64,000 nt of DNA from Flavobacteriales bacterium (lineage in GTDB: Bacteria; Bacteroidota; Bacteroidia; Flavobacteriales_E; Vicingaceae): assembly GCA_002401955.1 (NCBI GenBank), contig NVUQ01000009.1, forward strand, positions 1-64,000. The letters run 5' to 3'. Under the pieces are notes generated by a model. The model was not told the DNA's origin and ran no database searches. It saw only the letters and a program-made list of their open reading frames with translations. Position numbers and translations under genes: made by a program. Every line of letters starts with the position of its first letter. Within the stretch, counting starts at the first letter, position 1. This document shows positions 48,227 through 49,396 of the stretch, in pieces.

Positions 48227-49066
48227 TTAACTAGATTCCAATGTTAAGACATGTGATTTTGAATCTGTTTTATAAATCAATTGCTTTAATTCATTTAATC
48301 GTTTTCCATTTTTAGTAACTAACACCAATTTATCATCAGACCTGTTATGTATCAATTTGATTACTTCTTCTTTTACTTTATCATCATCTTTAATCGCTTG
48401 ATGAATTAAAGCGTTGTTTTCTGAAAATACTAAAACAGTTTTGCTCTCTTCATTCTTCTTTGCATAATGCCCAATAGTTTTACTCGTTGTTACAATGGTT
48501 ATTATACAGTACGCTGCCATTGTATAATCCTTAAAAGTGATTATCCCTAAAACAACTACAAAAGCATCCATTATTAATAGAAGGTGGCTAAACTGAAGAT
48601 TAACTTTTTCAGATAAAATTCTTGCCACAATATCACTCCCTCCAGTTGTTGCCCCACCTATTTTTGTAATAAAAATAGATGTTCCAACCAATAACCCTCC
48701 AAATATGCCAGAAACTAAAACATCATCAACAATAATGGCACTATTTGTTAACATGATAATTCCATCAATAAAAAAAGAGGAGGAAATCATGAAAAAAGCT
48801 GTTTTTAAAGCTGCCTTTTTTCCAAGGGTTTTTGCTCCCCATAATAATAAAGGGATATTTATAATTAATGCGAGTAATCCTACAGACAACCCAACAAGCT
48901 CAAAAGCTACTATGCTCAATCCAAAAACACCTCCAGGCACCAATCTTTGTGGCACAATAAATAAAGAATAGCCTAAAGACAAGACTACTGCTCCTAAAAG
49001 GACAAATCCATAATTTTTAGCTTCAGAAAGTAGACGCTTTTTATTTAGTTTAATAATGTTTTTCAT
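48227..49066 (-). CDS. YitT-family membrane protein
   Basis: The 279-residue protein has five hydrophobic segments in its first 200 residues (for example FVLLGAVVLSLGYSLFIVP, VPGGVFGLSIVAFELVGLSV and the GGATTGGSDIVARILSEKVN motif) and a C-terminal soluble DUF2179 domain (about 210-280, VLVFSENNALIHQAI). This is the standard YitT layout; the transported or sensed molecule is unknown. The ATG at 49066 is preceded by AAGGTG, which could act as a ribosome binding site; an in-frame GTG lies at 49069. The mRNA leader of about 310 bases contains two terminator-like hairpins. Confidence 0.88.
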   Translation of the reverse strand: MKNIIKLNKKRLLSEAKNYGFVLLGAVVLSLGYSLFIVPQRLVPGGVFGLSIVAFELVGLSVGLLALIINIPLLLWGAKTLGKKAALKTAFFMISSSFFIDGIIMLTNSAIIVDDVLVSGIFGGLLVGTSIFITKIGGATTGGSDIVARILSEKVNLQFSHLLLIMDAFVVVLGIITFKDYTMAAYCIITIVTTSKTIGHYAKKNEESKTVLVFSENNALIHQAIKDDDKVKEEVIKLIHNRSDDKLVLVTKNGKRLNELKQLIYKTDSKSHVLTLESS

Positions 49067-49082
49067 CACCTTAATTTATTTC

Positions 49083-49116
49083 AAAAAAAAACCCCTCGAT
49101 TTTGCAATCGAAGGGG
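49083..49116 (-). promoter_or_regulatory. Promoter-proximal terminator/attenuator hairpin before the YitT gene
   Basis: On the minus strand, CCCCTTCGAT pairs with ATCGAGGGG (one bulged base) and is followed directly by nine T, ending 17 bases before the YitT start codon. A terminator inside a leader implies regulated read-through. Confidence 0.7.
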
Positions 49117-49145
49117 ATAATTATTTAGTTATTATACTTTTTAAT

Positions 49146-49250
49146 TTACTCAGTTCGATTATATATTTTATTACATAAAACATTATAGACAGGACTCATC
49201 ATACAAGAAGTTGTCGTGCATTTAAAATTATATGTCGTTATCTGTTTCAT
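49146..49250 (-). CDS. Possible leader peptide, 34 residues
   Basis: A short frame on the minus strand starts at ATG 49248-49250, contains NFKCTTTSCMMSP and ends at TAA 49146-49148, about 30 bases before the YitT-proximal terminator hairpin. It has six Thr, three Cys and three Met in 34 residues, with a TTT run and an MM pair. Placement and composition resemble attenuation leader peptides. Coding is not proven. Confidence 0.35.
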   Translation of the reverse strand: MKQITTYNFKCTTTSCMMSPVYNVLCNKIYNRTE

Positions 49251-49262
49251 TTTCTTAAGCAT

Positions 49263-49296
49263 AAAAAAAGCGTTCATCTGTATTAGGTGAACGCTT
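49263..49296 (-). promoter_or_regulatory. Distal terminator-like hairpin in the YitT leader
   Basis: On the minus strand AAGCGTTCA pairs with TGAACGCTT and a T-run follows (A-run at 49263-49268 on the plus strand). It lies about 200 bases before the YitT start. A tiny frame (MHGVSSEV, 49318-49344) sits just upstream of it. Confidence 0.65.
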
Positions 49297-49388
49297 CGAT
49301 TTATAATTTATCTTAGTCTACACCTCGGAACTTACTCCGTGCATCTTAACAATCGTATATAAAAAATTTCTATTCATAAAATATGGAG

Positions 49389-49396
49389 CAAAATTA
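49389..49396 (-). promoter_or_regulatory. -7 promoter element for the YitT leader transcript
   Basis: TAATTTTG on the minus strand matches TAnnTTTG. A transcript starting near 49382 would carry both hairpins. Confidence 0.4.

Follow-up and report, generated by a model that had tools for sequence, protein, structure and literature searches.

The yitT gene lies on the minus strand of a 64,000-nt stretch of a marine Flavobacteriales genome (contig NVUQ01000009.1, positions 1 to 64,000), and this whole stretch is called the window here. Its product matches the Pfam family YitT_membrane (PF02588) with an E-value of 1.4e-43 and 149 bits, compared to a cut-off of 24.3 bits. The family is labeled 'uncharacterised', and we know of no substrate for any of its widespread members. 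No structural relative was obtained from the PDB, as the model of the protein (mean pLDDT 82.9) gave no Foldseek match at E<=0.001. The C-terminal part of the model is ferredoxin-like only, and therefore the structure does not point to a substrate. Between yitT and the convergent DUF2490 gene (48182-48219) there is a hairpin with flanking T- and A-runs, which is probably a terminator shared by the two genes.

Upstream of yitT, from position 49396 down to 49066, the minus strand carries in 5' to 3' order a predicted promoter, a short open reading frame (ORF), a terminator, a second short ORF, and a second terminator (Table 1). A preliminary description of the locus had placed the -7 element, both hairpins with their T-runs, the 34-codon frame, and the ATG of yitT correctly on this strand, but the 8-codon frame that it had listed as the first leader peptide (MHGVSSEV) turned out to be merely the end of the 19-codon ORF1, the ATG of which is conserved in the relatives. 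This ATG follows the -7 element after 10-12 nt in all seven leaders that are compared below, and after 11 nt in the window. The gap between terminator 2 and yitT comprises just 16 nt. Among the genes of at least 100 codons in the window, yitT is the only one with two terminators on the same strand close upstream; in the inspected cases with a single terminator, it is located after, or inside, the end of the upstream reading frame. An Rfam search of the leader yielded no match at the gathering score, and the same was true for the loci of five relatives, in agreement with the earlier remark that no known riboswitch was recognized. The best match was RF04312 (trpB motif) with 27.5 bits versus a threshold of 59; an assignment to this or another Rfam family was rejected because the matches were below the threshold and driven by the terminators.

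Table 1. Features of the yitT leader and its downstream gene in the window.
Feature	Position	Strand	Remark
Bacteroidota -7 promoter element TAATTTTG (TAnnTTTG)	49389..49396	-	TA[AG]TTTTGC in 7/7 leaders
ORF1, putative leader peptide of module 1, 19 codons, MNRNFLYTIVKMHGVSSEV	49318..49377	-	open in 7/7 leaders
Hairpin closing ORF1 (TGCACGGA...TCCGAGGTGTA)	49319..49343	-	predicted, full-leader fold
Antiterminator strand 1, AGGTG, final ORF1 codons	49321..49325	-	pairs with 49285-49289
CACCT, terminator 1 5' arm and loop, partner of antiterminator strand 1	49285..49289	-	folding, column permutation
Terminator 1, AAGCGTTCA...TGAACGCTT and T7	49263..49296	-	kept in 7/7 leaders; -13.0 kcal/mol
ORF2, putative leader peptide of module 2, 34 codons, MKQITTYNFKCTTTSCMMSPVYNVLCNKIYNRTE	49146..49250	-	open in 7/7 leaders
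Cys26 codon of ORF2	49173..49175	-	last A-site position with the antiterminator strand wholly free (stall model)
Antiterminator strand 2, AATCGAA, codons N31-R32-T33 of ORF2	49154..49160	-	7 bp with TTCGATT
TTCGATT, terminator 2 5' arm, partner of antiterminator strand 2	49106..49112	-	folding, column permutation
Terminator 2, CCCCTTCGATTGCAAAATCGAGGGG and T9	49083..49116	-	terminator-scanner match; -15.4 kcal/mol
yitT, membrane protein of 279 aa (PF02588), proposed regulated gene	48227..49066	-	ATG at 49066; Pfam

A BLAST DNA search of 100 genomes with the 330-nt leader gave matches of 73-81% identity in G011, G006, and G009, and among the 14 genomes of the genus a protein search detected close orthologs of YitT (68-73%) in precisely these three and in the own genome (G000). 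The leader is present in all four congeners that carry a yitT ortholog and in none of the 10 congeners without one. Widening the search to the family (46 genomes) gave no further YitT ortholog. Among 396 genomes of the class, G270 and G410, which belong to the same genus of another family, had a YitT of 50-54% identity; a search of that second family added G426, so that it contains three carriers in all, and a DNA search of its 35 genomes found the leader in only these three, together with one extra 40-nt match in G381 that is confined to the terminator 2 region. The own genome and its three congeners are called clade 1, the three genomes of the second Bacteroidia family clade 2. The clade 2 leaders have diverged in sequence from those of clade 1 and have the same architecture, namely, TA[AG]TTTTGC, 10 nt, a 20-codon ORF, terminator 1, a 36-38-codon ORF, and terminator 2 upstream of yitT. 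The comparison of leaders of yitT homologs, which the preliminary description had proposed, has revealed one architecture in seven leaders from two families, with identical order and spacing of the elements. Together with the match in exactly those congeners that have the ortholog, this recurrence shows that the arrangement did not arise by coincidence.

The gene upstream of the leader is common to G000 and G006 and different in G011 and G009, and because this neighbor varies between congeners the leader belongs to yitT. In G009 the leader and yitT are found on separate contigs with a 15-nt overlap at the terminator, which fits adjacency without proving it. The more distant YitT genes (G731, G145) and the paralogs have no two ORF-terminator units upstream, as judged by eye. 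A second leader copy was not found in the own genome, and a scan of the genome contigs for the leader recovered only three of the loci already identified. The YitT subfamily is confined to four of 14 congeners and a single genus of another family, and it never occurs without the leader; this distribution suggests that leader and yitT were lost or transferred as one unit. Two of the yitT genes appear interrupted, i.e., that of G011 (L002:1847-2692) by an in-frame TAG and that of G009 (L062, reverse strand) by what looks like a frameshift of one base close to the N-terminus; in both cases an assembly error or gene decay might be the reason.

In both modules the end of the ORF can pair with the terminator that follows it. 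RNAfold was run without constraints on the RNA from the ORF end through the terminator 5' arm, as it would be prior to synthesis of the 3' arm, and an antiterminator between the final ORF codons or stop region and the terminator 5' arm was predicted in 14 of 14 modules. Permutation of alignment columns, which were shuffled alike in all members of a clade so that their relatedness was preserved, supported these pairings over both clades with P=0.016 for module 1 and P=0.0017 for module 2. A test with shuffled single sequences was mostly non-significant and is not taken as proof; the case for the antiterminators depends on the comparison of seven sequences from two clades. In module 1, AGGTG:CACCT of G000 is replaced by AGATG:CATCT in G009, a compensatory change that also perfects the terminator stem and is thus evidence not exclusive to the antiterminator. 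Clade 2 has GGTAGAG:TTCTACC at this place, and in G410 GGTAGAAACG pairs with CGTTCTTCTACC. In module 2, AATCGAA:TTCGATT of G000 contrasts with [AG]TCAAAG:CTTTGGT in clade 2, e.g., ATCAAAG:CTTTGGT in G270, and G426 has AATCAAAG:CTTTGGTT. Further compensatory changes, taken like the first from the alignments by reading, are A-T to G-C in terminator 1 of G410, T-A to A-T in terminator 2 of G006, and T-A to G-C in the inner helix of antiterminator 2 between G410 and G426. The hairpin that closes ORF1 overlaps antiterminator strand 1 in clade 1, and contains a G-C to A-T change in G006 (CGGA/TCCG to CAGA/TCTG); in clade 2 it differs, has a GNRA loop, and does not overlap the antiterminator strand. 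In most modules the isolated terminator is more stable than the competing antiterminator, and the terminator wins every full fold, so that antitermination could occur only kinetically.

Both frames are open in all seven leaders without any frameshift, with 16-20 codons in ORF1 and 32-38 codons, including in-frame length changes, in ORF2. Frames of this length are found in about 1-10% of the shuffles of each region (P 0.01-0.06 for each ORF2). The dN/dS values of the alignable parts of both peptides are near 1 with much scatter. An open frame with a drifting peptide is what would be expected for a sensor of ribosome position, and not for a functional small protein, and a Pfam search with both small ORFs gave no domain above the cut-off. 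Threonine, which had been named as a feature of ORF2, is not conserved, as there are only two Thr residues in total in the three clade 2 ORF2 peptides. Instead, both ORFs mix codons for Met, Cys, His, and Trp, and no run of one codon exceeds two outside the start region. In the seven leaders these four amino acids make up 65 of 278 codons in the predicted stall-sensitive zone versus 4 of 85 codons after it (23% versus 5%). Fisher's test gave 2.5e-5 for the pooled data, in which related sequences count as independent, 0.0016 with one genome per clade (G000 and G270), and 0.02 or 0.25 for other pairs. Compared to the proteins of the window, clade 2 is strongly enriched in these amino acids (P 4e-7 to 2e-5 each; level matched in 0 of 2000 nucleotide shuffles), and clade 1 weakly. 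For ORF2 the enrichment amounts to 3.7-5-fold for Cys and 4-7-fold for Met. A Cys codon is found at the last permissive A-site position of ORF2, or at most one codon from it, in six of seven leaders, an observation made post hoc; ORF1 contains Cys in only one of seven leaders and has His, Met, and Trp instead.

The consequences of ribosome position were modeled by folding, on the assumption that a ribosome covers 14 nt upstream and 16 nt downstream of the P-site. In this model a ribosome that stalls no later than about codon 13-16 of ORF1 or codon 24-31 of ORF2 would leave the antiterminator available, and one past these positions less so; a ribosome at the ORF end lowers antiterminator pairing, and stalls further upstream do not. 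In the prediction, a ribosome at the stop codon blocks strongly in module 2 of G000 and G006, and weakly in module 1 of G011 and in module 2 of G009, G270, G410, and G426. Without a ribosome, pairing of the terminator arm is high in all 14 yitT modules, and likewise in one hisG control.

The leader of hisG in the own genome (L082, contig 12), which encodes the peptide MNFIQLHHHHFHTGPQASRR followed by one terminator, served as a positive control. As expected, the hisG leaders of the own genome and of relatives have a single ORF and a single terminator, and their His run falls into the zone that the same calculation marks as permissive. This shows, at the level of sequence prediction, that the lineage has classical leader-peptide attenuation, and that a predicted sensor of a single amino acid looks unlike the yitT leader. 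Both leaders have a TAnnTTTG promoter near the leader ATG and a short ORF with a terminator in front of the gene, and in both the final ORF codons pair with the 5' arm of the intrinsic terminator. However, the yitT leader has two modules and the hisG leader only one, and the run of His control codons (LHHHHFH) has no counterpart in the yitT ORFs. Furthermore, the hisG leader may contain a protecting hairpin, so that the untranslated leader is predicted to terminate, and in the own genome its arm pairing without a ribosome comprises 1.4 bases, in contrast to 7.7 and 8.5 bases for modules 1 and 2 of yitT. The preliminary idea that one amino acid or ligand is sensed is not established, given that a run of a single control codon is lacking in both ORFs.

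Sequence analysis has established the conserved arrangement, the pairings of the antiterminators, frames that are open although their peptides drift, and an accumulation of Met, Cys, His, and Trp codons in the predicted stall-sensitive part. The yitT leader is probably a tandem ribosome-mediated transcription attenuator, which would be switched on when its translation is slow or absent. The tandem attenuation suggested previously has thus gained support from the common conservation with yitT in two families, from an antiterminator at the ORF end of both modules, and from the compensatory changes and the open frames with drifting peptides. The sequence gave no sign of a transcription start downstream of both hairpins, or of a first hairpin that simply ends an unrelated small RNA, both of which had been named as refutations: the conserved predicted promoter is located upstream of both hairpins, and hairpin 1 has an ORF and an antiterminator of its own. 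From the parts we infer that the leader is transcribed and translated, and in which direction it switches. RNA polymerase would start just before ORF1, as indicated by the -7 element, and in each module a ribosome would translate the short ORF close behind the polymerase. A ribosome that arrives at the stop codon in time would cover the antiterminator strand, so that the terminator forms and transcription stops. After an earlier stall, or without a ribosome, the antiterminator strand would pair with the terminator 5' arm and transcription would continue. The order of the parts implies an AND logic, in which yitT would be expressed only after both gates have been passed.

The most likely signal is a general slowing or block of leader translation, with a preference for shortages of Met-, Cys-, His-, and Trp-tRNAs, as runs of one codon are missing and every stall, like the lack of a ribosome, is predicted to be permissive. 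A general slowdown would also be in keeping with mixed codons, drifting peptides, and two gates that must both be passed. Tentatively, we propose that the leader acts as a two-gate sensor of global translation capacity and that YitT is a membrane protein of translation stress. Only a general slowdown, i.e., starvation for several amino acids or inhibition of the ribosome, would open yitT, because the two terminators are in series and the ORFs contain different scarce codons.

Two other signals are rather unlikely. The tandem attenuator might sense the sulphur amino acids, Cys together with Met, and control YitT as a transporter related to them, whereby stalls at the conserved ORF2 Cys codon and at Met codons would open the gates under limitation. 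The position of this Cys at or beside the last permissive A-site codon in six of seven leaders and the enrichment of Cys and Met in ORF2 would be explained, and YczE proteins, which share DUF161 with YitT, have been proposed to be amino acid transporters (PMC4944035). However, there are just 1-3 scattered Cys codons and no run like that of hisG, ORF1 has Cys in only one of seven leaders, and G426 lacks Cys at that place of ORF2. It is doubtful to a similar degree that the leader is a sensor of ribosome-targeting inhibitors like those of inducible resistance genes, with drug-stalled ribosomes on either ORF opening both terminators and YitT counteracting the drug. This would be in agreement with the predicted permissive effect of any stalled or absent ribosome, with the drifting peptides, and with two serial gates, which favor a global signal. 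A lead, and no more than that, comes from mycoplasmas: missense changes in a YitT-family gene have been reported for three macrolide-selected strains of M. pneumoniae (PMC10240068, table) and for one pristinamycin-selected mutant of M. genitalium (PMC13148045, table). However, these mutations are uncharacterised, each is one of many in its strain, and the protein is distant and longer; in addition, YitT has no known resistance function, and an enrichment of rare amino acids would be needless for a drug sensor.

It is improbable that the two frames are small functional protein genes, or terminated small RNAs, with their own terminators, which merely precede yitT. The two frames are indeed conserved, and a strong terminator comes after each of them, yet their dN/dS is near 1 and Pfam domains are lacking above the cut-off, while architecture and antiterminator pairings persist. 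The unit also follows yitT over two families, although the upstream gene differs in two of four congeners, and a separate promoter outside the hairpin would not fit into the short gap after terminator 2. A metal sensor, in which nascent peptides rich in Met, His, and Cys, which are among the most enriched residues especially in clade 2, bind an ion such as copper and so arrest the ribosome, is very improbable, since Trp and Arg are enriched too, no metal motif is conserved, and the peptide is not under purifying selection.

The closest known case to the yitT leader is the mgtCBR leader of Salmonella with its short ORFs mgtM and mgtP, which has been described as 'tandem attenuators' that respond to ATP and to proline-charged tRNA in an additive manner (PMC3641672). 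Both are long leaders with two short ORFs, each of which attenuates, or in the case of yitT is predicted to attenuate, transcription into downstream genes for membrane proteins. However, the yitT leader is unrelated in sequence, gene, and phylum, each of its ORFs has its own intrinsic terminator, and it has mixed rare codons instead of a Pro-rich stretch. Sensing of stalled ribosomes by a short ORF, with derepression of the downstream gene as predicted for yitT, has been described for toiL-topAI, where a single antibiotic-sensing uORF acts on translation together with Rho-dependent termination (PMC12121999), and for the tylosin-induced leader of yxjB in B. subtilis (PMC6851288). In Flavobacterium psychrophilum leader-peptide attenuators, which are likewise flavobacterial and share the general mechanism, have been inferred for amino acid biosynthesis operons, and YitT is absent from the text of that study (PMC9723704). 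For BT_4401 of B. thetaiotaomicron several putative small ORFs have been reported in a 5' UTR of 462 nt (PMC7366714). No paper that links YitT to attenuation was found in the open-access literature, and absence there is weak evidence. Within the open-access literature searched, the predicted yitT leader is the first tandem leader-peptide attenuator with an intrinsic terminator per module in the Bacteroidota.

The yitT leader is a good candidate for an AND gate that responds to the speed of translation. It would tie YitT to the translation of two short ORFs, and this may offer a handle on the signal to which this widespread membrane protein responds, and hence on its role.
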